From contig JAGMUV010000010.1 of NCBI GenBank assembly GCA_020744425.1, positions 1,984,001-2,048,000 of the forward strand: 64,000 nucleotides of DNA, read 5' to 3'. Positions 3,744-63,693 of the stretch are shown one piece after another (position 1 is the first letter of the stretch; the number at the start of each line of letters is the position of its first letter). Source of the DNA: Dactylonectria macrodidyma. Its lineage: Eukaryota; Ascomycota; Sordariomycetes; Hypocreales; Nectriaceae. Made by a program: the position numbers and the translations under genes. The notes below the pieces were generated by a model, which saw only the letters and a program-made list of their open reading frames with translations, ran no database searches and was not told the DNA's origin.

Positions 3744-6654
3744 TTATAAACAACTTTTAAAGGTATTCTTTAATAGCCCAGCACTACCATTTATAGCTAC
3801 CTTTCCAGTCTCTTTAACTCTTACTTGAAACTTCACCAAGTCACCATCCTTCCACATCTCAGTAACCAGCGTCTGGCCTGGGATTACTATGCCAGCAAAT
3901 CGCACATTGATGTCCTCGATGGGGCCAAAGGTTGACACGACGTGCTTGGCACCGATGCCGAAGCTGCAAAGCCCATGCAATATCGGGGCCTCGAAGCCGC
4001 CGGCCTTGCTAACAGCAGGGTCAATGTGCAGGGGGTTTCTGTCACCGTTTAGCCTGTACAGGGCGGCCTGGTCTCGGGTCGTTTTCTCTTCAACGAGGGC
4101 GTCTGGCTTGTGGTGAGGCTTGGAGTAGGCAGCAGAGGCGTCGTCGCCGTGGGCAGACGAAGTTGAGGTGCGGGTGGCATGGCCGCCAAAGCCCCCCGAG
4201 CCGCGCATGAAGAGGGAAAACTCGTTGTAGAATATATCTTCCCCCGTGACGGCGTCCTTTGTCACGGTACCGATGATGGCGACGCTTGCTTTGCCCTCGC
4301 CCTTGTCCAGCATGTCGAGCAGCTTGCTTCGGGAGACAAAGGTACCAGATGTGGGGATGGGATACTTACGGACCTGCAAGAAATGCTCGCCGTGGAGGAG
4401 CCGCTTGTACGAGTAGTTTGGGACCAGGTCCTCGAGCTTGAATGGTCTTGGGGCAGTTGTCCCGGGAATCACGCCAAACGTGGGTAATACGTGGAAGTCG
4501 TTGCTCTGCTCAAACACCAGCGGTAGCTGAGTTGCCGTGGCGCCCAGCGAGAGATTGTACAAGATGACGTCTCTGTCGGTAAAGGACATGGTTGTCTCTT
4601 CTGGCACGGTATGCTTGGCCCTCTTGATGGCTTCCAGGTATCGCTTTTTGTCAGACGGTTGTTGCTCTGAACCTGAATACTTTCTACTATTCGCCATGAT
4701 GCGCCTTCGCACATCGGAAGCAACCTCAGGGTTGCTGGTTTTTCCGGGGGTGAAATCCACAATGGTCTTCCAACTCTCCAAGACTTCTTCGGGGGTCAGA
4801 GGTTTGGTGAGTGGAAAATCGACGCCGTTGGATCGCTGCCACCTCGTCCGTCCTTGCCAGCCACAGCCAACCTCAAAGACATGCCCAGTTGCGGCAGTAG
4901 GAACCTGGTCAGAGGACAAGAGCAGCACGAGATGGGCTACAAACTCGGGCTTGCGAGCGTTGACAATCTCGTCGCTGTGGACAGTCTTGGTGAGCTGCGT
5001 TCCCGCCGATGGCGCAATGCAGTTGACTTGGATGTTGTTCTTGCCACCTTCGATCGCTAGGGCTTTTGAGAAGCCTATGATGGCTGTTTTCTGCACCGAG
5101 GTCAGCTAGACTCAATTTATTGTCGAAGTGAGTTTTACTCACAGCGGCTGCATAGTTTGTTTGGCCAAAGTTGCCGTAGATTCCACTGGTGCTAGTGGTG
5201 TTGACAATGCGGCCGTACTTTTGCTTGACCATGTAAGGATATGCCGCCTTTGTACACTTGTACGTGGCACGCAGGTGGACATTGTTGATGTCGTCCCACT
5301 GCTTGTCCGTCATATTTTGAAACGACTTATCTCTCAAGATGCCCGCGTTGTTGATTAATATGTCGATCCGTCCAAAGTGATCGATGGCCGTCTTGATGAT
5401 TTCGTCTCCACATTCAGCAGAGGACGTGTTTGGCACAGCGACTCCTCCGAGCTGTCGAATCTCCTCGACGACAGTGTGAGGGTTCACGATGTCATTGACG
5501 ACAACTGACGCACCGAGCTTCGCCAGCTGCAAGCAATATGCCCGTCCCAGCCTGCCAAGAGGAGGAATGTTAGTTGTTGAGCGAGAGAAAGCGGGTGATC
5601 AGAAACACGGAACTCTGTCTTACCCAGCGCCTCCCCCCGTGACTACAGCCACTCTTCCATCAAAGCGAATAACGGGTCCGGGCTCGTTTGACGCTAGCTT
5701 CTGGGACTCTTTCAGCTTTTCAACCATGTCTGCCGTCGTCTTTGGATGATCAGGGTTGGCAAAGTCGTTGACGGCAGCCCAGTTCGCAAGAATCCCACCC
5801 GGCGTCATGCTGGGGTCACACCTAAGTAAGGCACCCTTGGATCTCTCCCACCTCAGTTTGGAAATATGACCCCCGCCCACTTCAAAGATAGAACCGTTCT
5901 CAAAGTCATTGCTTTTATGTACCAGTACTGAGACTAGCGGCACGACCCAATCTGGGGTGAGTATTCCTAGCAAGTCTGGGGGCATAACTGTGGCCGTCAT
6001 CCGGCTGGCGGCAATTGGGGCAATGATATTGGTCCGTATGTTGTACTTTTCTCCCTCCTTAGCCAGCGTCTCGCCGAATCCCACCATAGCAGACTTGGCA
6101 GCCGCGTAGTTGCATTGCCCAAAGTTGCCGTGGAGCCCAGTTGCCGAGGACGTCAAGATGACGCGGCCATACTTTTGCTTGCGAAACTGAGACCAGGCAG
6201 CATGGGTAGTCGTATACGCCCCTCTGACGTGTACTGCAATGACGGCATCCCAGTCTGTATCAGTCATGTTCTTGAACGAAACATCTCGTAGAATTCCCGC
6301 ATTGTTGATGAGAATGTCAATGCGGCCAAATACCGATACTGCCGTGTTAATGATGTTGGCACCCTGCTCAACGCTGTCATAGTTGGCGACAGCCCGACCG
6401 CCTCCATCTACAATCTCCTTAACGACTTGGTCTGCGGCCTGCATGCACGTTGTCAGTGGCGTTGATAAGGCACATGGTGACTTGGAAGTTGTCTTGCGAA
6501 CCTTTGTGTTGTTACCGTCGCCCTCTAGAGAGGCTCCGACATCGTTTACAACAATGGCAGCCCCCCGGGACCCTAGAAACTTGGCATAAGCCATACCCAG
6601 ACCTGATCCTGCCCCTGTAACCACTGCAACCTGGCCATCGTAACGTAGCTCCAT
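3744..6654 (-). CDS. Peroxisomal multifunctional beta-oxidation enzyme (MFE-2 / Fox2 type)
   Basis: Four exons: 6654-6502, 6438-5624, 5551-5143, 5090-3744. The product has 907 residues, the normal Fox2 length. Two short-chain dehydrogenase domains lie in tandem. The first has Tyr162-x3-Lys166 (NYAAAK), and the second has TGGGAG near 317 and Tyr456-x3-Lys460. They are followed by a MaoC-like 2-enoyl-CoA hydratase-2 domain with [10 protein letters not shown] near 808-817, which holds the catalytic Asp and His. The enzyme hydrates enoyl-CoA and oxidises the (3R)-hydroxyacyl-CoA. It ends in -KSCL, a variant peroxisomal PTS1. The ATG at 6654 ([16 protein letters not shown]) was chosen because it matches the family start; an upstream non-homologous extension was left out. 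The 63-nt first intron (6439-6501) has a weak donor (GTTCGC) and no stop, so it could be retained. Confidence 0.93.
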
Positions 6655-7220
6655 GTCGCTACTTGTTCGTCTTTTCACGATAGGGGAGGGTAGGTAGAAA
6701 CTCCGAAGCGTTATGAGATGCTGCAGAAGAAATGGCAACGAGGCAACGTCAAACTTGAATTAGGTTCACCGCAGTTGATGGAGAAGACGCAGATGTAATC
6801 TTAATATTGTATAGCCTCGAATATATACCAAAAGGAAGATTCACGCGAGTTTCCACGAGTCTCCGTCATCTTAAGCGAAACCGGCCCGGCCTGATTTGTT
6901 AGTAGCAGTTTGTTTTTGGTTTATTGTCGCTTGGCATACATGCTTGGCGCATCTCCTCTTGCCTAACAAGGTTCGGCTTAAGCCGAGGATATCGAGTGGT
7001 TGCCCGCCTCGACGACTGAAGACAGCCCAAAAGTTTTTCATGAAAGCCGAGGTAACCTACAATATCTACTTCTTCTGGCCGCGGTAAACGCCACGTCACG
7101 CATACCAGATTTTGGATTGACAACCTTTCACCGTCCCAGGACATCTATCACTGGTCCTTATAGACATAGGTGATCAAGCAGATTTTCACGACAGAGGTAC
7201 ATAAAATTGGTCAATGTACG
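6655..7220. promoter_or_regulatory. MFE-2 upstream region with CCTCGG sites
   Basis: No gene. Two copies of the complement of CCTCGG lie at 6983-6988 and 7047-7052, the second as GCCGAGGTAACC. It forms the promoter of the MFE-2 gene and the 3' flank of the MDR reductase gene. Confidence 0.5.
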
Positions 7221-8545
7221 CTACTGCCGCGGTGTGTCGACTACCCTATACACAAGTTTTGCCGCATTCACTTTTCCCTCCTTTAGATCCTGCAGACCCT
7301 GAAGAACTCCCTTCAAACCTCCCTCGCCAACATGGTGATTGTGGGGTCTCAAACGCCCCTGTCAAAACTATCAGTACGTGGCGCAACATGCCAATGACTC
7401 TGGGAGTGGTGACATCTGGATGAGGGAAGGGTTTGAGTCCACTCACCTGTGCTAACAGCTTCTCCGTAATGCGTGAAAAGGTTTTGGCAAATTCAAAATC
7501 CTCCCTACTTGCAGGCATGTGCACTTTGCCAAACATGAACTCTCTGCCAAAGGCGGTGTGCATGACCGTCGTGATGGTGCTAACATCCTTACGAGGGCTC
7601 TGGACTGGGAGCAAATTACCGTAGATGGGTTTGAGGGAGGAGTCGGTGGTGAGCGCTGTGGCACAGATTTGGGCCGAACTGTCTATGCTGATTGTATCCC
7701 ATGCATATCTTAGCTCGTTGTTGGTATATTGGCGGATTTTTTCTCCGGCCTCAACGTCTTTGTAGTCGACTGCAAAATCTGCTCCCAGACTTTTAACATA
7801 GCCAAAGTCTTCGGGAGAACACGCCGTTACTACGGTGTAGCCAGACCTAGGAACATGTCAGTCCTCGCCTCTTCTTGATCTTTCATTATCTTCAGAGGTC
7901 ATGTGCTGCTCACTGCTTTGCGTATTGGATCCCCAGAGCACCAGTTGAACTAGTGCCGCCGTATATCAACACCGGAATGTTTTTCTTTTCCACCTCGTTA
8001 GCAGCCACCACCGGCAAGTCAAGCCTTAGAGACTTTTGAAACAGCCCTTGGCCAACCGTCAAGGAGCCCAAGCCCAAGGTAGCGGACTGCTCGAAGCTTA
8101 AAGACTCGGGGACTCGCATCTGTAAGTCCCCGATGACGGTAGCAAACTCGCCAAAGACTCCGTCGTCCGGGTTGACCAAGTTGGCTCCATGGGCGCAGCC
8201 AAAGATGCGATCCCCTCGTTTCCACGTCTTGTTGACTGTTCTCCCGACGGCCTCGACGACGCCGGCATAGTCGCAGCCTAGAATGCAGTTGTCTTTGGCT
8301 CGACGATAATCTATGTGTCGCCAGTCTGTCGGATTCAGGGCTACGGCGACGGGCCTCACGAGTATGCAGTCGTCGCGCAGAGCAGGGACTCTCCTTGCAT
8401 AGTCGAGCCGGGCTGCACTTCCTTCGATCACGACAGCCTTCATCGAGTGAAGTCTTCGTCGTTGCGCCATGTATGAGCCATTGGCAATGGCGAAACTCGT
8501 CTTGTTCCTGAGCAACGGTGTGGTTCTCCTAGTAGCGGATGACAT
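7221..8545 (-). CDS. MDR-family (TOXD/quinone-oxidoreductase-like) NADPH reductase, probably mitochondrial
   Basis: Three exons: 8545-7914, 7846-7447 and 7358-7221, giving 389 residues. The N-terminal GroES-like domain has [16 protein letters not shown] and RGDRIFG, and the Rossmann part has YGGTSSTG. The final exon restores the family tail [19 protein letters not shown]. The ligands of the catalytic and structural zinc of alcohol dehydrogenases are not evident, which fits the zinc-independent quinone reductase / trans-enoyl reductase branch. The ATG at 8545 adds a basic stretch (RRTT...RRRLHS) before the family start at Met 8443 and would work as a mitochondrial presequence; initiation at 8443 would give a cytosolic form. 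It probably reduces an activated C=C bond of the substrate or an enoyl intermediate (inference). Confidence 0.83.
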
Positions 8546-8986: not shown

Positions 8987-10456
8987 ATGTCCTCTTCCTT
9001 GAATATTACTCCTACGCCCTTTTCCGAACCCCCATGGTTAACCGGGCTTCCCTCCCCTTACTACACAGACTCGCATCGAAAATGGCAGAAATCGTGTCGC
9101 GAATTCATCTCGCAACACCTCGGGCCTTATGCCCTGGAGTGGGAGGACGAAGGCAACGTTCCCGCCCACGTCTTCGAGACGTTTTCGAAACACAACATGC
9201 TCATACCAAATCTGCCCGCGCCTCTCCCCATTGATATGCTTAAGAATATGGGTATCACTGAGCTCCTGGGCGGGTTGAAGATTGACGAGTTCGACTACTT
9301 CCACTTTTCTATTTACATAAGCGAAATGCGAAGGTTTGGCGTCGGCGGTCCGACTTCGTCCCTGTCAACGGGAATGGCGTATGGGATGCCGCCCATCATC
9401 ACATATGGCAGTCGAGAATTGCAGCAGCGTTTACTTCCAGAACTGATACGAGGCGAGAAGAGAATCTGCATCGCCATCACGGAACCCGACGCAGGCAGTG
9501 ACGTTGCCAACATCTTAACGACGGCTGTCAAGAGCGAATGCGGAAAATACTACATTGTGAATGGTGAAAAGAAGTGGTGAGTTTGAGTCTCCTTCCAAGC
9601 TTGATCCCAGCTCTTTGTTTCACAGGAACCGGCTAAAAGAAAAAGGATCACTAATGGAATATGGTCACATTATGCAACCATGGCTGTTCGCACAGGAGGT
9701 CCCGGGGCTGCAGGGCTTTCGCTACTCGTGGTACCTCTGCTCGACTATCCTGGCGTGACGATGCGTCGAATGAAGACAATGGGAGGAACAACAAGTGGCA
9801 CGACCTTTATAGATCTGGAAGACGTCAAGGTCCCAGTTGGAAATCTGATTGGACAAGTGAGCATCCGTGGTTCCTTAGTTTTTTCCCCCATGTCCCCAAG
9901 TCATCCAAGGCCAACAGAAGTGTAGGAAGGGAAGGGAATGAAGATGATTACCAAGAATTTCAACCACGAAAGACTCGCTATTGCCATCGGCGTCAATCAG
10001 ACAGCCCGAGTCGCGCTCTCTGCCGCCTTCGCATACGTCCTCAAGCGAGAAGCCTTTGGGAAGCCCCTCATGGAGCAGCCAGTTGTCCGACATCGCCTTG
10101 CCAAATGTGGCGGCGAGCTAGAGTCTCTCTCGGCTTGGCTAGATCAGCTCGTATATCAGATATCACAACCGAATCACCATCCCAGTGGGGCCCCACAACT
10201 TGGGGGCCTCGTGGCCCTAGCAAAAGCGAGAGCGGGTATCGTCCTCGACGAATGTGCCCGTTGCGCTGTCCTCTTGTTTGGGGGGAACGGATATACGCGC
10301 ACAGGTCAAGGGGAGTTGGTTGAGAAGATCTTTCGCGAGGTTCCGGCAGCGCGGATCCCCGGGGGTAGCGAAGATGTTATGTTAGACCTCGCAATCCGTC
10401 AGATGGTGAAGGAATTTCAAGCCAAGACTCGTATACTGGGGAAAGAGAGGCTGTAA
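8987..10456 (+). CDS. Acyl-CoA dehydrogenase 1
   Basis: Three exons: 8987-9576, 9646-9856 and 9926-10456, giving 443 residues. The N-terminal alpha domain is followed by ITEPDAGSD (FAD/substrate-binding signature) and NGEKKW-ITNG, rebuilt across intron 1. The C-terminal helical domain has NFNHERLAIA, LKREAFGKPL and LFGGNGYTR. The classical YEG catalytic loop is replaced by IPGGSEDVM; the Glu in NHERL is a candidate base, as in IVD-like enzymes. It would form a 2,3-double bond in an acyl-CoA. The start at 8987 is the first in-frame ATG. The tail -KERL is not a canonical PTS1. It shares its promoter with the MDR reductase. Confidence 0.92.
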
Positions 10457-10838: not shown

Positions 10839-12875
10839 TCACTGCTTATCTGCCGCGGCCTGCTTTCGGATGGTCTGAACATCCTGGAAGGGATTCCGAC
10901 CGCCCCAAAACTCGCGCCAGCTGAAGTTCTTGATTTTGTTCTGGAACTGTTGGATTCCATGCTCGCCCTCTAACCCAGGCGACATCATCTTGTAGTAAGC
11001 CCTCTGGATCATGCCCGCCTGGGCTTTCGTTTCGGGGCCGTACCAACCAACCCGAACCAGCTCCTTGTTGACAGCGGCTGCCCGAGGAGCGCCCTTTTCA
11101 AGCTGGTCGAGATAGTTATCTAACTTGGAGCTCAAGGACTCACTGGGCTCAGTGATACCATGCACGGCTCCCACGCGGAGCAGCTCATCTGGTGAGACTT
11201 CCCTACCCGATATCATGGCCTCGCGCGCCATGGAAGCGCCCCATTCCCGCACGAGGTACTTCGAGATGATGGCTGGGTTCACACCAATCTTGACCTCGCT
11301 CAGGGTCCATCTCGCCTTTGGTGACACTAGTCGAACGTCGCAGGCGAAGCCAAGTCCCACGCCACCGCCATAGCAAGGTCCATCCACCAAAGCAATCGTC
11401 GTCTGTGGAGCCTGATCGATGGCATCAAATAGAGAGAGAACTTTGCCGTAGTAGCTAGAGTCGCCGGAATTTTCAAATATGGGTGTTCCGCCGCTCAAGT
11501 CCATGCCGGTGCAAAAATACTTGCCTTCGGACTCGATCACGACGTGGTAGACGGATGAGTCCTCGGCTAGGTTTCGAAACAGGTCGGTCAGGCCCTCGAG
11601 CATGGCGACGGTCATGGAATTGCCGTTCTTGGGTCGGGTCAATGTAACCTTCAAGGCGGTTCCCGAACGAGAAACTCGGTATTCGCCAGTGTCTGTCTCG
11701 TTTGTCCACAATCTCGCTTGTTTAGCTTTTGGGGCGGCTGGCATCGCATTCTTTTCCGTACTTGTCGCCGCTCTCTTCGCCGCCAGTGCTGCACCAGCTC
11801 TGCTTCCATAGGGAATCCCGAGTTGATGCGAGATCCACTGGCCAACAGATATAAGCTCGTTCAAGTTGACACCTGTGTTGATGCCGGCCTGCTCGAGGCC
11901 GTATACGACATCTTCGGTGGCCACATTGCCTCGGGCACCGGGAGCATAAGGACAGCCGCCCAGGCCGGCAACACTGCTGTCAAATGTCCTGATGCCCATC
12001 TCGTAGGCTTTGAATATGTTAGAAATTCCCATCCCGTACGTATCGTGGAAGTGGCCTGCAAGTTTGCTTGCTGGGATGTCACGGAGCAGCAGTTCCAACA
12101 ACACTTGAGTATCCTTTGGCGTTCCAACGCCCAAAGTATCTCCGAGGCCAACCTCGTAACAACCCATGTCAAGGAACTGCTGTACCACGGGGAGGACCTC
12201 CTCAGGTGCCGTTGGCCCAGAAAATGGATCTGAGAAGATGCAAGAAACTACACTGCAAGAGTACGATTTTAGTAGTTAAAATTCATCTACCTGTATCATT
12301 GGGATGACTTACCCCCGAACTTTGATGCCAAGGGAGAGGGCCTCCTTTGCAACGGCCCTAGCTTGGCTGAGGGCCTCGGCGACTGTGCAATTTTGGTTTG
12401 ACTTGCTAAAAGCTTCGGTGATGGAAGCAAAAACAACCACTTCCTTCGCTCCCGCTGCATTTGCATTCTTCAAGCCTATAGCATTTGGCGCCAGAACAGG
12501 GAATCGGAGAGGATGTCCTTTGTGTTCATGTTGAGCAAAGCGGAGGATGTCTCTCATGACGATAGCGCCATCTGCTAGCTGCGGCACCCATTTCGGCGAC
12601 ACAAATGACGTTGCCTCAATGTCACGCAAGCCTGTGCCTGCGAGGCGTTTAATCAATTCAACTTTGGTATCCTTGGGCACCTGTTGGTCTTGGTTTTGAA
12701 GTCCATCTCTGGGCGCGACTTCAATAATGCGGAGTTTTCCATCATTTCTGTATGTTGACTGATATCTCCTGTAGGCGTTCAGGCGCAGAGAACCAGCCCG
12801 AACACGATGACGGGCAGATGCAGAATTGATACTGAAAAGCCTCGTCATAGGTGAGTGAGATTGGTGTAAAGTCAT
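10839..12875 (-). CDS. HMG-CoA lyase / enoyl-CoA hydratase fusion, mitochondrial
   Basis: Two exons: 12875-12313 and 12252-10839, giving 658 residues. Residues 1-45 are rich in Arg and Ser (RHRVRAGSLRLNAYRRYQS), a typical mitochondrial presequence. Residues 48-345 are HMG-CoA lyase, with APRDGLQN (catalytic Arg56, metal ligand Asp57), GHFHDTYG (His255, His257) and GLGGCPYAPGARGN (catalytic Cys288). After a linker, residues 380-620 are a crotonase domain with FCTGMDLSGG, CYGGGVGLGFACD and TLSEVKIGVNP. The second crotonase Glu (508) is kept and the first is replaced by Gly. HMG-CoA lyase gives acetyl-CoA and acetoacetate. A fused hydratase would supply its substrate from a methylglutaconyl-CoA-like intermediate, as in leucine and acyclic terpene catabolism. 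Each domain is near full length, and they share one uninterrupted 1.4-kb exon. Confidence 0.92.
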
Positions 12876-50833: not shown

Positions 50834-50841
50834 ATGAGTGG
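50834..50841. repeat. Target-site duplication, right copy
   Basis: ATGAGTGG, identical to 47590-47597; it encodes part of the PLI residues of the racemase when read on the minus strand. Confidence 0.95.
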
Positions 50842-51863
50842 TCTTTGCGGATATTCTGCCTCTTCAAGCTCTCCGTATTCCAGCACCGGCACGACACAGG
50901 CGTCCATGTCGTCAAAAATGGCTTCCCATTCTCTTCGCGTCTTTTTCTTAAATCGATTTTCAAATACGCGGTACATGTGTGGCCAGTTTCTCTTGTCGTC
51001 CCGTTTCATGTTACCATGACCAATGTCTTTTGGGCTGATGTTCAAACCTCGCAGCAGGTTTGCAAAGAACTGTGGCTCCAGTGCACCAACAGACATGTAT
51101 TTTCCAGCGTCCTTGCACTCGTAGCACCTGTAATACGGGCATCCTCCATCCAAAAGGTTCGTGCCTCTCTCATCGCTCCATACGGGCTCCTTGGTTCGTA
51201 GCCTCGGGATGGTACCCAAGTAGCCAGCGCCATCAACCATAGTGGCCTCTACCACCTGGCCCTTGCCACTTGTGCTACGATGTATAAGAGCAAGAACCAC
51301 GCCGGAGAATGCAACTAGTCCACCGCCGGCATAGTCCCCAAGGATGTTGGCCGGAGGAGATGGAGGTTCGCCTCGGGCGCCCAACATGCTGAGAAGACCC
51401 GAGACGGCCAGATAGTTGATGTCGTGGCCAGCCAAGTCTTTGTATTTCCCGTCGCGTCGATATCCCGTCAGCCGAATCACTATCAGCCGCGGGTTGTCTC
51501 TAGTGAGAGCACTCGGGTCGAGATCTAGCTTCTCCAGGACTCCAGGTCGAAACGGATCGATCAACACGTCAGCCTTGCGCAGTATCGACTTGAGCAAAGA
51601 TATGCACAGTTGAGACTTGAGATCTAAGACCACAGACGACTTGTACGAAGTGAGGATGTCGGAATGTGGCGAGGTGTCAGGGCGATCGATTCGGAGGACG
51701 GAAGCGCCATAAGAAGACAATAGCTGGCCGCAGAAAGGTCCTAGAATTTCCACATCAGACTCAGGATTTTGAGAAAATGGTGGTTACAGAGGGGATCCTC
51801 ACCGGGGGCTAAACCTGCAAGCTCAACAACCCGTATCCCGTTCAACGGAGGGCCGGCTGACAT

Positions 51864-53540: not shown

Positions 53541-54665
53541 ATGTCGACGCATCATCCTGGTCCCTCAATCCCCCCCAGATCGCAGATGGAGAGAGTTCTG
53601 TCTCTCTACCGCTTGAAGGGAAAACGCGATGACTCAGACAGCTTCAGTAACCAAGAGCCCCTTCAGTGTGCCCCTTGGGCACGAGGGGCTTACGGTGGAC
53701 AACTCGTTGCTCAGTCACTGCTGGCTGCGTACGAGACAGTGCCGAGTCATTTCGCCGCACACAGCATCCATTGTCACTTCCTGAGAGCCGCAGACGTCGA
53801 CATGGCCATTATATATCATGTGTATAGAGTGCGAGACGGGAAAAGCTTTGCGACGCGCGTCATTTCTGCGACACAGGGCCACAGAGTCATCCTGTCGGCC
53901 ACTGCTAGCTTCACTCAGGACACGGAAACGAGCAGCAAGAAGCTCAAACACGCGGCTTCAATGCCGCTTAACGTGCCATGTCCCGACGACAGACCTGAAG
54001 CCGTCGTCACTCAGTCTGCTGCGGGCCAGGGAGGCCATGGGAGACCATGCGACTGTGTACGCTCTGTTTCGGAAACCAGGGGCCGACCTAGTGAGAGAAG
54101 ACTTCGCCAGTGGACAAGAGCTCGTGGACGGATGGGAGATACGACGCCTTTAGTTGTCGACGCTGACATGGCAGAGACGCAATCGGCAAACACTGACCCA
54201 AGCCCACGAGATAACCATCATGCTCATCTCGCAGCCTTGACATACATAACGGACAACTACTTCATCGGCACCGTCTTTCGAGTACATAACGCTTCTCGCT
54301 TCTCCAGCCCATCGACGCCGCACGCCATGCTTTCTACGCCTCGGGGCAACTTTGCGGATATTGAGACACTCCAAGCGTACTTTGATGCTTTGGTAGAGGA
54401 AGAGAAGAGTGACAACAGGGAGGCGCTTAAAAACGACAAGCGCGTCGAGATGATGGTGACTCTGGACCACACCATCTTCTTCCACCGGCCGCGAGGCTTC
54501 CGCGCCGACGACTGGTTGCTGTCCGAGATGGAGAGCCCGTGGGCAGACGACGAGAGAGGTGTCGTGGTGCAGCGGATCTGGAGCCGACATGGTACTCTGG
54601 TGGCCACGGCTATCCAAGAAGGTATCGTGAGGCTGTCTCAAAACGAAGGCGAGAGCAGATTGTAG
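53541..54665 (+). CDS. Peroxisomal acyl-CoA thioesterase II (TesB/ACOT8 type)
   Basis: A single exon of 374 residues. The double hotdog fold of the TesB family shows GAYGGQLVAQSL, SIHCHFLRAADVD, RDGKSFATRVI, CDCVR with ERRLRQW, ALTYITDNYF and LDHTIFFHRP. The Asp, Thr and Gln active-site set is plausible as Asp in YITDNYF, Thr in LDHTIFF and Gln in ATAIQEG. It ends in -SRL, a canonical peroxisomal PTS1. The enzyme frees acids from acyl-CoA and would release CoA or export chain-shortened products. It lies next to the racemase and thiolase, the other peroxisomal branched-chain enzymes. Confidence 0.93.
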   Translation: MSTHHPGPSIPPRSQMERVLSLYRLKGKRDDSDSFSNQEPLQCAPWARGAYGGQLVAQSLLAAYETVPSHFAAHSIHCHFLRAADVDMAIIYHVYRVRDGKSFATRVISATQGHRVILSATASFTQDTETSSKKLKHAASMPLNVPCPDDRPEAVVTQSAAGQGGHGRPCDCVRSVSETRGRPSERRLRQWTRARGRMGDTTPLVVDADMAETQSANTDPSPRDNHHAHLAALTYITDNYFIGTVFRVHNASRFSSPSTPHAMLSTPRGNFADIETLQAYFDALVEEEKSDNREALKNDKRVEMMVTLDHTIFFHRPRGFRADDWLLSEMESPWADDERGVVVQRIWSRHGTLVATAIQEGIVRLSQNEGESRL

Positions 54666-54750: not shown

Positions 54751-56242
54751 CTACAAATGTGACTGAGCACCGATTCTATCTTTCGTATCTCCCAAGGCAA
54801 AGTCATTTCTGTTCTTCTTGCTCCGCACCCTATCGGCGTCACCGTCAGTAATGCCCCGCGCCTCTACAGCGGGATTATAGCCCAGCCAGGAATCCCTCGC
54901 AACCTCTTGGTTACTAACGATGGCGTTAGCCCGGTCGTCTGCGCGCTTGTAGACGTTGACAACAACAGCGCCTCCGAGGCCTAGATTATGCTGCAGGGCA
55001 ACCCGTGTCTTGTCGGCGAGTCTATTATTGGCCCATCCTCTCAGCTGCCACGTCAGCTCGGCGCACTGAGCGAGCCCCGTTGCGCCGATGGGATGTCCCT
55101 TGGAGATCAAACCTCCTGACGGATTTACCACCATTTTTCCGCCAAACGTGATGTCTCCTCGGCGGACCATTTCGTGGGCTTTTCCAGGTTCGGCAAAACC
55201 TATGGCGTCTAAGAGGACCAGCTCGTTCGTCGAGAAGCAGTCATGCAGCTCGCAGACTCGAACGTCGCTAGGTGTTACCCCTGCCTCCTTCATGGCTGCT
55301 CGGGCCGCCCGTTGCGTCATGTCATAGCCGACGAGCTCCATAGCACTCATTTGGAAGGCTTTGGGGGAATCTGTAAGAAAGGACTGCCCGGCCATCAAGA
55401 CTGCGTTGCCTTTGAGGTGAGGCCGAGCATCTAGGAATCTTTGCGAGACGATGACTGCCGCAGCGGCACCATCGCTTGTGGGGCTGCATTGTAACTTGGT
55501 CAGAGGGGCAAAGATGGTTGGCGAATCCAGAATCTCCTTAAGACTGTAGGTCTGACGGAACTGCGCATATGGGTTGTTCTTGGAGTGCTCATGAGAGATG
55601 CGACCAATCTCAGCAAAGTCTTCTGCCGTTGCCCCGTACCTAAGCTCTCTTGTCAGCAACATGTTGTCCAAAACCCGCTCATTCTTGTTCCCTTCGGCTT
55701 CAAGCCACGGTATGAGATGAGTCGGCCAAAGTTTGAACTTACTTTTCCATATACTCGCGGCCTGCGTTTGCAAAGTATTGCGCTGTCAGAGGGGCCTTCT
55801 TTTCAATGCCCACCAACTCTGCCATTTTAGCGGCAAAGCGACCACTGGAACTAGGCCTGTCATCCCACACGCTTTTGAGACTCCCTGGCTTCATCTTTTC
55901 AACTCCCACCACCAGAACACAATCTACCTTGCCACTCTTGACAAGTGTACGAGCCAAGTAGAGACCCACGGAGCCGGTAGCACAGGCATTGCTCGTGTTA
56001 ATAATGGGGATAGTTGACATGCCAAACTGGTAAAAGACGCGCTGTCCAGACGTCGAGTCGCCGTAGGCAAAACAGGCAACGCCGTGCTCGACGTCGTCGT
56101 AGTTGATCTGGGCGTCGAGCATCGCCTTGATGCCAGCCTCGTACCCCATGTCGGGATACTCGCGCAGCCCGCGGGGCTTGATGAACTTTGTCATGCCCAC
56201 GCCAAGCACGTACGCTTCCGATTCAAGCGGTGGGTTTTCCAT
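54751..56242 (-). CDS. SCPx-type 3-oxoacyl-CoA thiolase, peroxisomal
   Basis: Two exons, 56242-55743 and 55639-54751, giving 462 residues. The nucleophile Cys87 lies in NTSNACATGS, followed by CELHDCFSTNE (His299) and GHPIGATGLAQ (His349) near the C-terminus, all in the SCPx/ACAT-like thiolase pattern. No SCP2 lipid-binding domain follows. Instead there is an extra tail of about 70 residues rich in charged residues, ending in -SHL, a good PTS1. SCPx thiolases cleave 2-methyl-branched 3-oxoacyl-CoAs, such as pristanoyl and sterol side-chain intermediates. That matches the racemase next door. Confidence 0.92.
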
Positions 56243-57265: not shown

Positions 57266-59426
57266 TCAAAACGTGGTGATTTCAATACCCTTGAAACTCT
57301 TGGTAGCTCTCCACGCAATCAAATGCTGTTTGAAATGAGAAGGCCCCTTGGACCAGAGCGCCAAGCGAGCCCTCTTCTGCTGAACCTCTGGCGCCGTCTC
57401 GCGATCAAACTCCCCCTCGCCGTTGAAGTAACTGGGCGTACAGCCAGCGCCGGCCGCAAAGACGCCGGCTTGGGAGGCAATGAGCTGAGCCCATTCCTCT
57501 TCGGCTTCAGCGGTGGGTTCGACGATGAAGTTGCATCGGTAGTTGCGAGGAGAGTCCAGTGAGGGTTGGCTGCTGATGGGCTCCGCTTTGGATGCCACGG
57601 CTCGAGCATGGGCTATGATCTCGGCCGTATGGAGGGCTGACACCTCGACAGTATAGGTAAAGTTGGGGCCGACACCGCTCTGGTTGAGACCGGGCCAAAA
57701 CAGGTTTGGAAAGTCGTGGCTCATCATGCCGTGGAGCGTCGTGACGCCGTCCGCCCACTTCTTGTTGAGGGAGAGCCCATTGCGACCCTTGACGTCGATG
57801 CCGGCTCGACCTACGGGGCTGTACGAGAGCGGCCCCTTGTAGCCGGTGCTCAGGACTAGCAGATCAACCTTGTACTCCTTATCACCGATTATGATGCCAT
57901 CTTCGGTGATTTCGTTGACCCCAAACCCGTTTGTATCAACGAGTTGCACGTTGGGCCTGTTAAAGGACTGCAGATACTCGTCGTGGAAGCAAGCCCGCTT
58001 GCACCAGCCCGGGTACCACGGCTTGAGCTTCTCGGCCGTCTCTGGGTCATTGACAATGTCGTCGACGCGTTGGCGGACCTTGTCTTGCACGGGCAAGTCG
58101 ATGGCGTTGAGCTCCTGGACGCGCTTATGAGTATCTTCTGGGGTCCGACAGTCGGCTTCAGGGGTTCCCGAGTTGGCGCTGTACGTGAGCAGCCTGGTCC
58201 ACCCATCGTCGACCATGTTGAGAGACGGAGGGTTTACCCTGATGTTCGCGACGTAGGCGTTGAAGTTCTCGCTTCGCTCAGCCTGCCAGCCCGGGGTTAT
58301 ACGCATCTCATCGGCCCATTTTGGATCTGTCGGCCGATTATCTCGCGGATTGACCGATGAAGGTGTCCGTTGAAACACGTACAGCTTCTTGGCCCAGGCT
58401 GCCAGGGCCGGCACTGTTTGGATCGCCGTGGCACCGGTGCCGATAATGCCAACTCTTTGGTTCCTCAGCTGCGTCATCTCGGGGTTTGCGACGGTTCCCC
58501 CGGTACTGGCATAGTCCCAGCGAGCTGTATGAAAGCAGGGGCCCTTGAACTTTTCGATGCCGGGGATCTGAGGAAGACGAGGAACGGCAACGACACCGGT
58601 TGCGAGAATGATGAATCGCGACCGGACATTGATCAAGGGGCCTTCTTCGCCGCTACCTAGCTGGGCGTTGAGTCCGGTTACCCACTCCTTACTGTTGTCG
58701 TCCCAGTCGATGGAAGCGACGCGCTGCCTAAGCCACGCCGTCTTGTCGAAACCCCACTGCTTGGCAATCCTTTCTGCGTGCTCTCTGAGCTCCTTGCCAG
58801 AGGAGTACTTCATTGATGGAATGTAGTTTGTCTCTTCAAGTAGAGGCATGTAGATGTAACTTTCAATATCGCACATTAGACCAGGGTAGCGGTTCCAATC
58901 TATGGCAGTCAATGAGTGAGGCTCAAGTAAGAATGAAGACGAGGAGTCACTTACACCAGGTTCCACCAAAACCGCCCGCCAAGTCCACGATCCGAATCTC
59001 TTCGGGTTTGAACCCAGCTTCGAGTAGTCTGACTGCGTAGAGCAGCCCGGAGTAGCCTCCGCCCATAATTAAGACTTCACTGCGGGAGCCATCCTGTGGC
59101 GGAGCAACACTCGGGCGAGGGCCGTCTTGTTCGAGCCATGGATCCGCTTTGAAGCGCCGGAATCTTGCGTGGTCGTAGAGATCGATGAACTGGCTGGCGC
59201 CGTCGTCGCGTAGCCGCTTGTTGCGCTCTTCCGCGTACTTTTGTTGAACGGCAGCAATCGATTCGATGCTCCTAGTGTCACCATTTTCGACCTGGGATGG
59301 AGGGACAAGGGTTCCGTTTGTCTGTATCGTTGCTTCCGACATGGCAAGAGAACAATCAGAGGCGACTAGGTTCATATGGATGTTCGATGTCTTGTGTGCG
59401 TTTGCAACAGGTGGCATGGCCTTCAT
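57266..59426 (-). CDS. Baeyer-Villiger flavin monooxygenase 2 (steroid/cyclopentadecanone monooxygenase-like)
   Basis: Two exons, 59426-58955 and 58899-57266, giving 701 residues. The FAD motif GGGYSG is at 122-127, and GGTWYWNRYPG is rebuilt across the intron. The complete type I fingerprint FKGPCFHTARWD is at 275-286 and the NADPH motif GTGATA follows. It has an N-terminal extension of about 110 residues and a long C-terminal part, as in the large BVMOs that accept macrocyclic, steroid and terpenoid ketones. The start may be 59426 or the later ATG at 59342 (MSEATIQ). It ends in ITTF without a targeting signal. With BVMO 1 it suggests two ring or side-chain oxygen insertions. Confidence 0.94.
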
Positions 59427-60499: not shown

Positions 60500-61903
60500 T
60501 CAAATTCTGGACAATCCGCCTCTACGTTCTTTGATCCTTTGCACCCGCTGAAAAGCCGCGTCCAAGAACTTTTTTGTTTTGACAAAATACAGGTGACTCG
60601 ATGTGCTGCTCGCCTGACCGCTGATTGTACGTGCTTGAATGCCGTGGTTGACGGTGCCTGCTCGGACGTACTGGAATATCGTGGCAATCTGCCAATCCTT
60701 TCCCCCTCCGTCCTTTCGAAGGTCGAAGCCGACTAGTTGGGTGTAGCGGTCGAGGAGTTCATCAAGTTCCAACCTTGCACTCGGTTTTTGGTTTTCCTCC
60801 TTGGATGGTGACGATTCATTAGGCGACGGAGCTTGAATTTCGAAAGTGACATAATCCTCAAAGAAAGGACTGACGTGAAAGACAAGATCCATCAGCGGGT
60901 GGCCGATGGTAGACAACTCCCAATCTAGGATGGCAATCACTCTCGGCTCCGTAGGATGGAGGATCTAGAGAAGAAGCGTAAGTCGAATGTTACCTTCATC
61001 AGGGTTGAGCATGTGATGCCATTACCAGATTGTCAAATTTGAAATCTCCGTGCACAATGGCATACCGCTCCCCTGGTGAGTTGTCTCTCACGTAATCCAT
61101 CAGGACGTCGTATTTATCATGAGCTCGACCTAGAGCTTTACCCGTCGCTGCGTCTTTGACGGAAGCCTGTTGAGATTCGACACGGCTCCAGGTGCGGCAA
61201 TGGCGACGATAAAAGTCGGACTTTTTGCCATATCCCTCGAGACCGATTGCGTCTGGGTCGAGGGAATGCAGCCATGCTAGAGTCTCTATGGCGGAGAACC
61301 TACTGTGAATAAATGATTAGAATGATGCCTCAAGAGCCTTGGTGAGTTGTTACTTACGCTTTGCGTCTGTCGGTTGGTGAAAGTTCACTTAGATTCGGAT
61401 CTGTTAAGATTCTACCCTTGACAAACTCCATTACCTAGACATCGATAGTGAGCAGCAGGGTCAACGACTAGGCTAGTGATGACTTGCATAGAAGGAACTT
61501 CCAATAACAGAAGGGTCCTTGCAGAAATCAAAAACCTTGGGGACAGGGAAACCCTCGACGGAGCTGAGTGCTTGAAGAACCCTGAATTCTCTATGGATTT
61601 GGTGTGCCACGGGACTGATGGATTCCCCCGGAGGTTTCTTCCTCAGTATGAACCTCGAACCACTGTAGGATACAAGTAGAATCAGTGTCAAGTCGACTGG
61701 CGTTAAGGATACCGCAAAAGCTTTACAACTCACGCTGCATCATCAATGTAGTAGGTAGGGTTACTCTGACCGTAGCCGATTTTGGTCGTCACAATCGGTC
61801 CTTGCAAATTTGGAATCTTGCTTGTTTGAAGCAGGTATTTCCCCAAAGCTTCATCGTCGAGGGTATGCTGCGAACCAGCCGTTGAGCCGGCGATAGAAGA
61901 CAT
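60500..61903 (-). CDS. ACAD10/11-type aminoglycoside-phosphotransferase-family kinase
   Basis: Five exons: 61903-61734, 61662-61488, 61434-61358, 61299-61026 and 60964-60500, giving 386 residues. The pattern is that of the kinase half of ACAD10/ACAD11: GYGQSNPTYYI, RFILRKKPPG, VMEFVKGRILTDP and ETLAWLHSLD. The catalytic loop HGDFKFDNL (Asp226, Asn231) and ILDWELSTIGHPLMDL (Asp246) follow. ACAD10/11 phosphorylate 4-hydroxyacyl-CoAs so that the partner dehydrogenase can remove the group. Here the partner is the divergent ACAD gene at 62335. Intron 2 (61435-61487) uses a GC donor (GCAAGT). The start at 61903 was chosen because it gives the family N-terminus; a longer upstream frame shifts out. 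Confidence 0.9.
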
Positions 61904-62334: not shown

Positions 62335-63693
62335 ATGAACTTTGAACTCCCAACAGGAGTGCAAAGCTATCTAGCGCGCATTGATGCATTTATACGCGAT
62401 ACTGTCAAGCCGATACAGGACAAGGACGATAACCAGCGCTTCTTCGACCATCGCCGAGAAGCTTCGAGAACGCAGTGGGACAACCAGGGCTTGCCCACCG
62501 AGGACTGGGAGGACTTGCTCGCACGGGTCAAGAAGCTTGCCGACGAAGCAGGCTTCTACCGCTTTTCGTGCCCAGTGGAATATGGCGGATCGGGCCACGC
62601 GTCTCTGAATCTGTACATGTGTGCCATTCGATACCACCTCACCTCTCACCCCGACTATGGAGGCGGTGTCAGCCTGGCCAACGACCTGCAGAGCGAGCAC
62701 AGCGTCGTAGGGAACATGCCATTTGTGACGCTTCTCTATTACTACGGCACTGAAGAGCAGAAGAAGACGCTCATCCCTGCGAGCATCCAAGGCGAGATGA
62801 AGCCTACTTTTGGACTGACCGAGATCGAACACGGCTCCGACGCTACGCACATGGAGACGACGGCCGTGCCTATCACTCTCCCTTCGGGCGAAGCTGGGTA
62901 CGAGATCAACGGCAACAAGAAGTGGCAGACGGGAATGCATACAGCCAACTATTGCGTCGTCTTTGCACGAACATCTGGAAGAGCTGGAGACGCAAGGGGC
63001 ATCACAGCCTTTATGGTACCTGCCAACTCCCCAGGTGTAACTGTGGCTTCGTACGAATGGACGCTCAACATGCCAACCGATCACGCTACCGTTCTGTTCA
63101 AAAATGTGCGCGTTCCAGCGTCTGCCATTTTGGGCCCATTGAACAATGGACTGGCCATTGCCCAGACCTTTACTCACGGAAATCGACTCCGTCAAGCCGC
63201 CGCAAGCTGCGGTGCCGCGCGATACTGCATCGATCGAAGCATTGAGCACGCCAACAAGCGCAAGGTGTTTGGGAAACCCCTTTCGGTTAACCAGGCCATC
63301 CAGTGGCCCCTCGTGGAACTCGCGACGCAAGCAGAGATGCTTATGCTCTTGATCCTCCGCACAGCCGTCGACATGGATCGAGTCACGGCCGAGGCTGAAG
63401 CGTCCGGTGAAGCACCATGGATCGCTATCGAGAAGCAGCTCGGACACAAGATTGGGATGTGCAACTACTATGCGAACCGTCTGGCTTGCGAGTCAGCCGA
63501 CCGTGCCATCCAGATCCACGGTGGCGACGGATATTCGCGGCATCTTCCCTTTGAGCACATTTGGCGACATTTCAGGCGATATCGGCTCACCGAAGGCAGT
63601 GAGGAGGTGCAAATTCGTAAAGTGGCTGCCTACCTCTTTGGCTACAAGAAGACTAAAGAGACAAAGGGGGCCAAGGGTGAAGTGAAGCTGTAA
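62335..63693 (+). CDS. Acyl-CoA dehydrogenase 3 (ACAD10/11-like dehydrogenase)
   Basis: A single exon of 452 residues. FSCPVEYGGSG, FGLTEIEHGSD, INGNKKWQTG and FMVPANSPGV form the first half. NGLAIAQTFTHGNRLRQAA, KRKVFGKPLSVNQAIQWPL, IQIHGGDGYSRH and RLTEGSEEVQIRKVA form the second. The -SEEVQIRK- end in place of YEG and the helical insert (VTAEAEASGEAPW) resemble the ACAD10/11 branch. Paired with the divergent kinase it may act on phosphorylated hydroxyacyl-CoA. The tail GEVKL is a weak PTS1-like end. No mitochondrial presequence. Confidence 0.9.
   Translation: MNFELPTGVQSYLARIDAFIRDTVKPIQDKDDNQRFFDHRREASRTQWDNQGLPTEDWEDLLARVKKLADEAGFYRFSCPVEYGGSGHASLNLYMCAIRYHLTSHPDYGGGVSLANDLQSEHSVVGNMPFVTLLYYYGTEEQKKTLIPASIQGEMKPTFGLTEIEHGSDATHMETTAVPITLPSGEAGYEINGNKKWQTGMHTANYCVVFARTSGRAGDARGITAFMVPANSPGVTVASYEWTLNMPTDHATVLFKNVRVPASAILGPLNNGLAIAQTFTHGNRLRQAAASCGAARYCIDRSIEHANKRKVFGKPLSVNQAIQWPLVELATQAEMLMLLILRTAVDMDRVTAEAEASGEAPWIAIEKQLGHKIGMCNYYANRLACESADRAIQIHGGDGYSRHLPFEHIWRHFRRYRLTEGSEEVQIRKVAAYLFGYKKTKETKGAKGEVKL

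Follow-up and report, generated by a model that had tools for sequence, protein, structure and literature searches.

A probably shared catabolic gene cluster of Dactylonectria macrodidyma with a possible role in the use of cyclic isoprenoids

Closest Described Systems

Limonene use by Grosmannia clavigera, which according to Wang et al. in 2014 reportedly requires two BVMOs and involves clustered, induced genes, with roles also suggested for an enoyl-CoA hydratase and an epoxide hydrolase, may serve as a BVMO-dependent precedent for the D. macrodidyma cluster described here. To our knowledge, SUGCT-like and kinase modules have not been described for that system. The Pseudomonas Atu/Liu pathway for acyclic terpenes and leucine comprises a glutaconyl-CoA hydratase and an HMG-CoA-lyase-type cleavage and requires a biotin-dependent acyl-CoA carboxylase. 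The same hydratase and cleavage are predicted for the D. macrodidyma cluster, which differs by the fusion of both activities, by added ring-opening enzymes and by the lack of an acyl-CoA carboxylase match on its contig.

A review names CMQ_7007 and CMQ_6956 as the G. clavigera BVMOs (PMC8120277). A five-gene cluster of this fungus, induced by pine phloem extract, contains co-induced steroid-monooxygenase, P450 and MFS transporter genes together with a P450 reductase and a beta-lactamase-like gene, and according to its authors is not conserved in Aspergillus or Fusarium (PMC3091685). It is smaller than the D. macrodidyma set and lacks a CoA-ester pathway; unlike it, the D. macrodidyma probe genes are linked in Aspergillus and Fusarium members. 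In case of the ACAD10/ACAD11 and LvaA-LvaC systems, two reports describe phosphorylation of 4-hydroxyacyl-CoAs by ACAD10/11 (PMC11342911; PMC12440821), and the lva operon carries a kinase and an acyl-CoA dehydrogenase (PMC12440821). Likewise, the kinase of the D. macrodidyma cluster most resembles the ACAD11 kinase domain and adjoins an acyl-CoA dehydrogenase gene, but the best match of this adjacent dehydrogenase is not ACAD11. Human SUGCT is the best match of a cluster transferase across residues 27-412 of 428; unlike the human gene, the fungal one belongs to a catabolic cluster that also includes a fused hydratase-lyase.

At about even odds (roughly 0.5), we read the locus as a cluster conserved among fungi that would break down a cyclic isoprenoid (terpenoid-like) compound, so that this root fungus would hold an assembly-line-like gene set for consuming a ring-shaped, probably terpene-like plant compound. 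Both ascomycetes, D. macrodidyma and G. clavigera, possess the lyase-hydratase fusion (67% identical). Named G. clavigera entries are present among the listed fusion relatives, and none occurs among the 120 listed BVMO-1 or the 120 listed kinase relatives, which counts against this reading.

Gene Content and Edges

Pfam scans of 40 reading frames plus spliced pieces, together with a custom gene finder that takes introns into account and a frame-by-frame inspection of split genes, revealed 25 genes at positions 3,744-63,693 of the window, i.e., the whole analysed stretch of 64,000 nucleotides (Table 1). These are three acyl-CoA dehydrogenases, two each of BVMOs, HSL-type hydrolases, AMP ligases, CoA-transferases III, Zn2Cys6 regulators and APH-fold kinases, and single genes for the HMG-CoA lyase/enoyl-CoA hydratase fusion, FMO-like enzyme, MFE-2, SCPx-type thiolase, thioesterase, zinc alcohol dehydrogenase, SDR, mitochondrial carrier, MFS transporter and transposase. 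The 60-kb catabolic gene set of the preliminary description is partly confirmed and holds in substance; it named about 24 consecutive genes, but 14 of the 25, not almost all, encode CoA-ester or flavin enzymes.

Table 1. Genes of the cluster with positions in the window, strand and supporting matches
Gene	Position	Strand	Evidence
MFE-2, two SDR dehydrogenase domains + hydratase-2	3744..6654	-	adh_short 9.2e-34; MFE-2_hydrat-2_N 3.1e-38; MaoC 6.7e-28
Zinc-type alcohol dehydrogenase (MDR), split across two frames	7249..8443	-	ADH_N 1.9e-10; ADH_zinc_N 1.5e-5, below cut-off
Acyl-CoA dehydrogenase a, two introns	8987..10456	+	Pfam; spliced by eye; PDB best 3r7k 3.2e-47
Fused HMG-CoA lyase - enoyl-CoA hydratase, 649 aa	10839..12848	-	HMGL-like + ECH_1, one frame
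HSL-type alpha/beta hydrolase 1	13719..14690	+	Abhydrolase_3 1.4e-54; LipP1 family 7.2e-54, below cut-off
BVMO-1, single exon	15327..17300	-	PDB best steroid monooxygenase 4ap3, 1.1e-60
Acyl-CoA ligase	18212..20217	+	AMP-binding + AMP-binding_C; acyl-CoA ligase families below cut-off
Short-chain dehydrogenase/reductase	21024..22127	+	adh_short 1.9e-12
FMO-like flavin monooxygenase, long N-terminal region	22576..24663	-	Pyr_redox_3 5.7e-24; FMO-like 1.5e-18
Zn2Cys6 transcription factor 1	25601..27749	-	Zn_clus 1.8e-7; Fungal_trans 1.8e-10
Acetoacetyl-CoA-synthetase-like (AACS-like) ligase	28625..31225	-	acetoacetate--CoA ligase family 8.6e-51, N-terminal frame
SUGCT-like CoA-transferase III	32326..33935	-	PDB best 9br7 succinate--hydroxymethylglutarate CoA-transferase, 4.8e-113
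Acyl-CoA dehydrogenase b	34556..35878	-	Pfam, PDB, NCBIfam
Mitochondrial carrier family protein	36468..37592	+	Mito_carr 9e-56
EcKL/CHK-like phosphotransferase, start unsure	37915..39215	-	EcKL 8.1e-10; APH 4.4e-9; frames joined by eye
MFS transporter	39845..41217	+	MFS_1 3.8e-24
HSL-type hydrolase 2	41814..42719	+	Abhydrolase_3 3.9e-55; GESAG HSL subfamily 1.3e-68, below cut-off
Zn2Cys6 transcription factor 2	44419..47179	+	Zn_clus 1.2e-6; Fungal_trans 1.2e-26
Transposase, mid-cluster	48352..50299	-	repeated genome matches
AMACR-like CoA-transferase III, model 3' end unsure	50674..51863	-	CoA_transf_3 3.6e-57
Acyl-CoA thioesterase, C-terminal SRL	53541..54665	+	4HBT_3C 1.2e-29; Acyl_CoA_thio 3.6e-23; tesB 3.7e-55, below cut-off
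SCPx-type thiolase, C-terminal SHL	54751..56242	-	Thiolase_N, Thiolase_C_1; lipid-transfer protein/thiolase family 1.2e-98, C-terminal frame, below cut-off
BVMO-2	57266..59417	-	PDB best 5mq6, 3.7e-179, query 55-696 of 698
ACAD11-like (LvaA-type) kinase, five exons, four introns	60500..61903	-	PDB best ACAD11 7.8e-55
Acyl-CoA dehydrogenase c	62335..63693	+	Pfam, PDB, NCBIfam

On the left, a GH43 gene at 1.5-2.5 kb (Pfam) lies outside the cluster, as does a presumably mannanase-like gene. On the right, the gene set probably continues beyond the window as far as about 86 kb, with a third HSL hydrolase, a membrane protein, a P450, another alpha/beta hydrolase, an ABC transporter and one further protein lacking a Pfam match. 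The transposase gene, without Pfam match and by its sequence presumably of the hAT type, is an insertion and not a pathway gene; of its 36 listed matches in the genome, counting the copy in the window, 15 extend over no fewer than 1,400 of the 1,948 bases, each at 86% or above.

As described before, no PKS, NRPS or terpene synthase gene was found in the reading frames scanned by Pfam. PKS-type models matched only through superfamily resemblance, KR to the MFE-2 dehydrogenase and ketoacyl-synt and ACP_syn_III to the thiolase. A cluster for detoxification or secondary-metabolite tailoring, which would modify rather than consume a lactone- or ester-bearing compound, may hold BVMOs, a P450, HSL hydrolases, a thioesterase, two regulators and MFS and ABC transporters, all encountered here; it is nevertheless unlikely, as no backbone synthase was seen in the window scans and the fused lyase, SUGCT-like transferase, SCPx thiolase and AMACR-like protein suggest consumption of carbon. 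Catabolism of a cyclic isoprenoid is in turn weakened by the lack of an aldehyde dehydrogenase match in the window frames scanned.

Candidate Ring-Opening and Side-Chain Enzymes

BVMO-1 carries the motif FKKPIFHTAKWD, and its relatives are named 4-hydroxyacetophenone monooxygenase by their sources. BVMO-2, which we take to be PockeMO-type, contains the exact motif FKGPCFHTARWD. BVMOs are present as described previously, but the flavoenzyme at 22.6-24.7 kb lacks the BVMO fingerprint in the motif scan. The HSL hydrolases, two in the cluster by Abhydrolase_3, agree with the preliminary description, as do MFE-2 (its layout presumably that of fungal Fox2) and the SCPx thiolase, both identified by Pfam.

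For AMACR the agreement is partial. The protein encoded at 50674..51863 is probably AMACR-like, an identity resting on the stretches AGHDINY, GDYAGGG and GALEPQF, which are absent from the SUGCT-like protein and which we assume to belong to the AMACR active site; in NCBIfam it matches solely formyl-CoA-transferase-type models, below cut-off, and this dependence counts against our reading. The second CoA-transferase was rejected as AMACR, given its far weaker PDB match to AMACR (just 7e-39) than to human SUGCT; its best NCBIfam model is succinate--glutarate CoA-transferase (below cut-off, partial frame).

Degradation of a sterol, steroid or triterpenoid, with SCPx thiolase, AMACR and MFE-2 acting on the side chain and bulky-substrate BVMOs on the rings, would draw on the side-chain set present here and on the best PDB matches of BVMO-1, a steroid monooxygenase, and BVMO-2, a fungal enzyme presumably acting on bulky polycyclic ketones. 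We consider it quite unlikely, since best matches of BVMOs do not predict the substrate, families presumed typical of steroid ring cleavage are not among the Pfam matches in the window, and the SUGCT-like transferase, fused hydratase-lyase and AACS-like ligase would be left without a role.

Fused Lyase-Hydratase, Kinases, and Dehydrogenases

Both domains of the previously described hydratase and HMG-CoA lyase are present, but in a single fused gene. The lyase half is closest to human HMGCL (3.6e-84), with the loops RDGLQN, HFHDT and GGCPYAPGARGN, and the hydratase half to isohexenylglutaconyl-CoA hydratase (3.6e-27), with which it shares a GGGxGL alignment. By eye, the N terminus of the fusion is presequence-like.

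No biotin carboxylase was found on the cluster's contig (C2): all eight carboxyltransferase and ten biotin-carboxylase N-domain matches of the genome are located elsewhere. On contig C18, a carboxylase locus lies 5.5-8 kb from a hydratase-only match; on C1, both carboxylase match types occur about 24-31 kb from a paralogous lyase-hydratase fusion. This distribution favours a carboxylase-free branch in the cluster and with it our reading. A carboxylase-free role is therefore not intrinsic to the fused enzyme, and the C1 paralog counts against our reading. An Atu/Liu-type pathway for acyclic isoprenoids or leucine, supplemented with extra oxidases, would account for the fusion and its isohexenylglutaconyl-CoA hydratase-like half; with no match for the required carboxylase on the contig and two BVMOs unexplained, it is very unlikely.

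In the cyclic-isoprenoid reading, the SUGCT-like transferase and the ACAD11-like kinase are central pieces, which the preliminary description did not use; neither kinase appeared in its gene naming. The ACAD11-like kinase gene, one intron of which apparently has a GC donor, encodes HGDFKFDN and DWE, and is divergent from that of dehydrogenase c, with starts about 430 bp apart. ACAD11 is the closest PDB match of none of the three dehydrogenases that might partner the kinase, a further point against our reading. The same holds for the NCBIfam scores of dehydrogenase b (acryloyl-CoA reductase, 249 bits; glutaryl-CoA dehydrogenase, 228 bits) and for its lack, by eye, of what we take to be the carboxylate-binding arginine of human GCDH. 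The N terminus of dehydrogenase b appears presequence-like by eye.

The AACS-like gene agrees with the activity named before, but contains an in-frame TAG at 31045-31043, 60 codons past the first ATG; in the PDB set, the mitochondrial carrier protein resembles uncoupling proteins (UCP1, 2.2e-36) more than the oxoglutarate/malate carrier (1.6e-17). Both observations count against our reading.

Linkage in Other Fungal Genomes

Three genes served as probes: the lyase-hydratase fusion, BVMO-1 and the ACAD11-like kinase. Among the matches listed, two or more of them are linked in 12 further fungal genomes of Sordariomycetes and Eurotiales (class checked for five species), i.e., separated by no more than 18 locus-tag numbers (10 genomes) or assigned to contigs of equal length (two genomes). 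In tag-matched assemblies, fusion and BVMO-1 are linked in 5 of 9 (unlinked in 4), fusion and kinase in 4 of 10 (unlinked in 6), and BVMO-1 and kinase in 5 of 7 (unlinked in 2). The linkage favours our reading, as do the gene content and the best matches of the SUGCT-like transferase, the fusion, the kinase and BVMO-2; the unlinked assemblies count against it. Since the three genes are linked across classes, they are not scattered in all relatives, and the earlier interpretation of the region is partly supported, namely as a catabolic cluster; a complete route that includes uptake may be encoded. Due to the co-occurrence of pathway parts in distantly related moulds, the cluster probably represents a real, shared catabolic pathway. 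That unrelated catabolic genes merely lie side by side by chance, for which the large genome (77 Mb) rich in such families (79 fragment-level BVMO-1 matches), the transposon and the unlinked assemblies might speak, is extremely improbable given this linkage in 12 genomes of two classes.

Proposed Route

For the catabolism of a cyclic isoprenoid we infer the following reactions, with their order, compartments and substrate. The flanking P450 and the cluster SDR/ADH would produce a ring ketone, into which BVMO-1 and/or BVMO-2 would insert oxygen, and the HSL hydrolases would open the lactone. The resulting methyl ketone may be converted to an acetate ester by a second Baeyer-Villiger step, the ester cut by an HSL hydrolase and the freed alcohol oxidised to a dicarboxylate. 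A remaining 4-hydroxyl (gamma-lactone type) would be phosphorylated on the CoA ester by the ACAD11-like kinase, with an acyl-CoA dehydrogenase driving loss of the phosphate. After mitochondrial entry, 3-alkylglutarate would receive CoA through the SUGCT-like transferase, dehydrogenase b would form the glutaconyl-CoA, and the fused hydratase-lyase would hydrate and cleave it to acetyl-CoA and a 3-oxoacid, in a branch that would run without a biotin carboxylase. The AACS-like ligase would re-activate the 3-oxoacid for splitting by thiolase, and 2-methyl-branched pieces would be shortened in peroxisomes by AMACR, MFE-2 and SCPx thiolase.

Oxygenated p-menthane terpenoids would fit best as candidate substrates. 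For this skeleton, 3-isopropenyl-6-oxoheptanoate or its hydrated form would yield 3-isopropenylglutarate and finally acetyl-CoA and a methacrylyl precursor, and the arithmetic closes.

Gene content of the cluster

Gene calls from a purpose-written intron-aware gene finder, together with Pfam scans of 40 reading frames, assign 25 genes to the 3.7-63.7 kb part of the window, namely 22 genes for enzymes or transporters, two for Zn2Cys6 regulators and one for a transposase. This set is a real catabolic cluster whose core is conserved, and the preliminary description was right in substance as to its gene content and in kind as to its interpretation, with a mechanism that was incomplete. CoA-ester and flavin enzymes, said there to make up almost all of the genes, account for 14 of the 25; the absence of PKS, NRPS and terpene synthase genes was borne out, since none was seen by Pfam in the 40 reading frames of the window, and a KR match on the MFE-2 dehydrogenase and a ketoacyl-synt match on the thiolase are superfamily cross-hits. 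The hydratase and the HMG-CoA lyase are encoded by one gene with both domains in one frame, and two kinases, one EcKL-like and one ACAD11-like, had been missed. For the sterol side-chain set, MFE-2 and an SCPx-type thiolase were found, and a candidate AMACR by CoA_transf_3 and motifs only. The tRNA scan found none, and the composition analysis gave nothing useful.

Location of features in the window and of further loci in the D. macrodidyma assembly (G000, 77.3 Mb in 77 contigs; C2, contig of the window; C1 and C15, other contigs)
Feature	Location	Strand	Remark
Fused HMG-CoA lyase and enoyl-CoA hydratase (fusion)	10839..12848	-	protein P0001
BVMO-1	15327..17300	-	
FMO-like flavoenzyme	22.6-24.7 kb		
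In-frame TAG, acetoacetyl-CoA-synthetase-like gene	31045-31043	-	60 codons past first ATG
SUGCT-like transferase	32.3-33.9 kb		
Transposase	48352-50299		repeated family in genome
AMACR-like protein	50.7-51.9 kb		
BVMO-2	57266..59417	-	
ACAD11-like kinase	60500..61903	-	deposited protein P0243
Right flank (L006-L008)	64161 to ~86290		window coordinates; probable extension
Transposase copy	G000:C2:2094030-2095977		98% copy, ~60 kb downstream
Second fusion locus (L011-L015)	G000:C1:6435433-6469992		
NRPS-like gene	G000:C15:1146026-1175425		

Linkage of the core genes in other fungi

Linkage of three probe genes (fusion, BVMO-1 and kinase) was judged by locus-tag numbers and contig sizes of their relatives in three protein searches, with assemblies matched by tag prefix, so that the tags cover three genes, not all 25. 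The searches scored 8,000 proteins for the fusion, 7,998 for BVMO-1 and 8,000 for the kinase, the best 120 of each entering the comparison, and BVMO-1 relatives of at least 60% identity entered the fusion-BVMO-1 count. The fusion was linked to BVMO-1 in 5 of 9 assemblies and to the kinase in 4 of 10, and BVMO-1 to the kinase in 5 of 7. The numbers of unlinked assemblies are upper bounds, since the proteins were clustered at 90% identity and a linked copy can hide under the name of another strain.

Linkage of probe genes by locus-tag numbers (first/second gene of the pair)
Pair	Linked	Not linked
Fusion/BVMO-1	F. decemcellulare 2904/2906; F. sp. NRRL 66182 10399/10398; A. nanangensis 004013/003996; P. 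lividum 005054/005071; P. pulvis 000992/001008	C. psammophila; F. falciforme NW767; S. stenoceras; S. eucalyptigena
Fusion/kinase	A. nanangensis 004013/004004; P. lividum 005054/005064; F. ambrosium 012271/012264; N. clavispora g4445/g4427	F. falciforme NW767; S. eucalyptigena; N. mojaviensis; C. europaea; C. psammophila; C. immunda
BVMO-1/kinase	A. nanangensis; P. lividum; F. nematophilum 005614/005607; S. eucalyptigena 002996/002998; F. falciforme NW767 011942/011926	T. curvatum; C. psammophila

Contig sizes agree as well in all 10 tag-linked genomes, and A. unguis (fusion-kinase) and P. minimum (BVMO-1-kinase) are linked by equal-sized contigs alone, which gives 12 genomes beyond that of the window, including Hypocreales, Ophiostomatales, Amphisphaeriales, Togniniales and Eurotiales (the order was verified for five species). 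In F. decemcellulare, the tags of fusion and BVMO-1 differ by two, which matches the window with its single HSL gene in between. By a rough estimate, the chance that two genes picked at random from about 8,000 or more lie within 20 numbers of each other is well below 1%. A chance neighbourhood was set aside, because the probe genes are linked elsewhere.

Species whose proteins stem from strains that differ or cannot be matched were left out of the counts: Clonostachys rosea, C. byssicola, Ilyonectria robusta, Fonsecaea pedrosoi, Fusarium nematophilum (fusion), F. falciforme FALCPG4, Neopestalotiopsis sp. 37M versus N. clavispora, and Paraphaeosphaeria minitans. Capronia epimyces, Cladophialophora immunda, Mytilinidion resinicola, Aspergillus carlsbadensis and Lophium mytilinum were left out due to BVMO-1 identities below 60%, and no linkage was found among these five species. 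Contigs of 6172, 4854 and 105287 bases, each present in two lists and likewise excluded, suggest further linkage.

In a tree built from 37 named fusions and the paralog on contig C1, linked members occur in both the Eurotiales and the Sordariomycete groups, and the label "linked" requires 3 changes compared to a shuffled mean of 5.5, a value as low being reached in 17 of 500 shuffles. The fusions of Seiridium and Neopestalotiopsis nest with those of F. decemcellulare and F. piperis (95/87), adjoining the Dactylonectria pair (100/99). Due to this placement among the Nectriaceae, the tree hints at horizontal transfer of the fusion gene and possibly of the cluster, or else at hidden paralogs.

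Fusion protein and CoA-transferases

The lyase and hydratase domains of the fusion are encoded in a single frame, and P0001 (649 aa) contains both. The lyase half carries RDGLQN, HFHDT and GGCPYAPGARGN, the catalytic loops of HMG-CoA lyase, and the NCBIfam HMG-CoA lyase model scores above its cut-off (369.7 versus 246 bits). The hydratase half is closest to isohexenylglutaconyl-CoA hydratase, with GGGVGL aligned to GGGFGL. In the acyclic-terpene/leucine (Atu/Liu) pathway a carboxylase accompanies hydratase and lyase, whereas a profile search across the whole contig of the window gave no PF01039 or PF00289 match indicative of a biotin-dependent acyl-CoA carboxylase; for this reason the acyclic pathway was set aside.

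Elsewhere in the assembly, contig C18 holds acyl-CoA carboxylase matches and, 5.5-8 kb away, a match to the hydratase alone, and contig C45 a lyase-only match. On C1, a second fusion, 48% identical, is situated about 24-31 kb from biotin carboxylase and carboxyltransferase genes, and this locus possibly represents a separate isoprenoid or leucine route.

The assumption of two AMACR genes was dropped, as one of them is SUGCT-like: its best PDB match is human SUGCT (9br7, 4.8e-113), with AMACR far off (7e-39), and SUGCT scores 381 bits, the runner-up under another name 297 and AMACR 137. The SUGCT-type NCBIfam model also ranks best, below its cut-off (197 of 750 bits) on a partial frame. The AMACR-like protein matches CoA_transf_3 in Pfam and has three stretches absent from the SUGCT-like protein, which we take to be AMACR active-site motifs; its NCBIfam matches are formyl-CoA-transferase-type models only, all below cut-off, and its identity as AMACR is putative.

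Flavin monooxygenases, kinase and acyl-CoA dehydrogenases

Type I Baeyer-Villiger monooxygenases share the fingerprint FxGxxxHxxxW[PD]. BVMO-2 contains it exactly (FKGPCFHTARWD at residue 272) and matches 5mq6, the polycyclic ketone monooxygenase PockeMO, over nearly the full length (3.7e-179). BVMO-1 carries FKKPIFHTAKWD, with one change, lysine for glycine, and the exact fingerprint is found in 76 of the 120 best proteins listed for it, the window's own entry included. In the motif scan, the FMO-like flavoenzyme matched neither the exact nor a relaxed BVMO pattern, and the count of three BVMOs in the window was accordingly dropped.

The best PDB match of the kinase is ACAD11 (7.8e-55). Its catalytic residues HGDFKFDN and DWE are encoded in the DNA, and 111 of the 120 best listed relatives match HGD[FWY][KR]xDN. 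The deposited protein P0243 (379 aa) differs from our splice model (97% identical) and lacks HGD[FW]KxDN, although the DNA encodes HGDFKFDN. Both the kinase gene and that of ACAD-a, one of the three acyl-CoA dehydrogenases of the cluster, look broken in a single frame, an impression dropped because four introns (one apparently with a GC donor) and two introns, respectively, account for the split frames.

The window kinase shares the kinase domain and its catalytic residues with the ACAD10/11 and LvaA/LvaC systems, but no partner dehydrogenase of the LvaC/ACAD11 subgroup was found among the three cluster dehydrogenases, whose best PDB matches are other ACADs; for ACAD-c, ACAD11 appears only far down the match list (2.7e-25). 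ACAD10 and ACAD11 phosphorylate 4-hydroxyacyl-CoA and then eliminate the phosphate (PMC11342911; PMC12440821), and neither main text contains the string "fung". Since lactone opening yields hydroxy acids, it is chemically reasonable to find a predicted 4-hydroxyacyl kinase near two BVMOs and the HSL esterases.

Proposed route and substrate

It is tempting to speculate that the cluster specifies a fungal route, not described before, for the full breakdown of a cyclic terpenoid, in which the ACAD11-like kinase and an acyl-CoA dehydrogenase remove a 4-hydroxyl and a 3-alkylglutaryl-CoA provided by the SUGCT-like transferase is cut by the fusion, without a biotin carboxylase, and whose core is common to the five orders Hypocreales, Ophiostomatales, Amphisphaeriales, Togniniales and Eurotiales. 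We hold this reading tentatively, at a probability of roughly 0.3. Lactone opening would leave a tertiary or secondary 4-hydroxyl as target of the stand-alone kinase and the dehydrogenase. Because no carboxylase match exists on the contig, the SUGCT-like transferase and a dehydrogenase would make the glutaconyl-CoA out of a dicarboxylic acid, in place of a carboxylation. A mitochondrial location is suggested by the presequence-like N-terminal stretches, judged by eye, of the fusion and ACAD-b and by a mitochondrial carrier gene adjoining the latter; uncoupling proteins match this carrier best and the oxoglutarate/malate carrier less well, which leaves its type unsure.

For a p-menthane terpenoid as substrate the carbon count would close. 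Baeyer-Villiger opening would yield 3-isopropenyl-6-oxoheptanoate or, if terpineol or cineole is the starting compound, the hydrated form of this acid. The latter is a 4-hydroxy acid, and its lactone is described in a review as the product from 6-oxocineole in Rhodococcus (PMC4097962). A second Baeyer-Villiger step and hydrolysis would give the 3-isopropenylglutarate skeleton, which the SUGCT/fusion module would convert to acetyl-CoA and a methacrylyl precursor. A sesquiterpenoid of the bisabolane type is just as possible, because AMACR, SCPx and MFE-2 would suit a longer, methyl-branched chain. Sterols are possible substrates too, but would leave the SUGCT/fusion module idle. Within the part of the open-access literature covered, no fungal pathway paper was found on 3-isopropenylglutaryl, fungal SUGCT, or combinations of terpene, BVMO and HMG-CoA lyase, nor did a description of the present gene set turn up there.

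Comparison with Grosmannia clavigera

The nearest known case is G. clavigera, to which the window cluster appears similar in outline. Its limonene-utilisation cluster is reportedly induced by monoterpenes, with growth lost on BVMO deletion, and Wang et al. are said to have inferred in 2014 that limonene carbon is used through the valine pathway and that two BVMOs are needed. The G. clavigera fusion is 67% identical to that of the window; no named G. clavigera protein occurs among the 120 best listed relatives of BVMO-1 or of the kinase. A five-gene cluster of this fungus is induced by phloem extract (PMC3091685), two of its BVMOs act in terpenoid detoxification, and its enzymes were, according to a 2021 review, the only characterised fungal ones for this function (PMC8120277). 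Fungal terpenoid mineralisation would become open to direct testing through a largely self-contained set of genes that has relatives in moulds amenable to culture. The window cluster would furthermore give a catabolic context to fungal ACAD11-type kinases and SUGCT-like transferases, and would offer a carboxylase-free degradation of beta-branched carbon.

Flanking region and further observations

The right flank of the window comprises genes for a third hydrolase of the HSL type, a small membrane protein with no match in Pfam, a P450, an alpha/beta hydrolase, a protein without Pfam match in its first 330 residues, which we take to be regulator-like, and an ABC transporter, presumably of the PDR type; this region is a probable extension of the cluster. 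The in-frame TAG of the acetoacetyl-CoA-synthetase-like gene lies within family-like sequence, and the gene may be inactive, misassembled or spliced in an unseen way. The transposase is by likeness presumably of the hAT type; among 36 genome matches listed, 15 (window copy included) span 1,400 or more of the 1,948 bases with an identity of 86% or higher, and besides the copy downstream of the window further near-full copies occur elsewhere. On contig C15, a frame that runs for 12,685 codons without interruption and carries at least six AMP-binding matches represents a giant NRPS-like gene.
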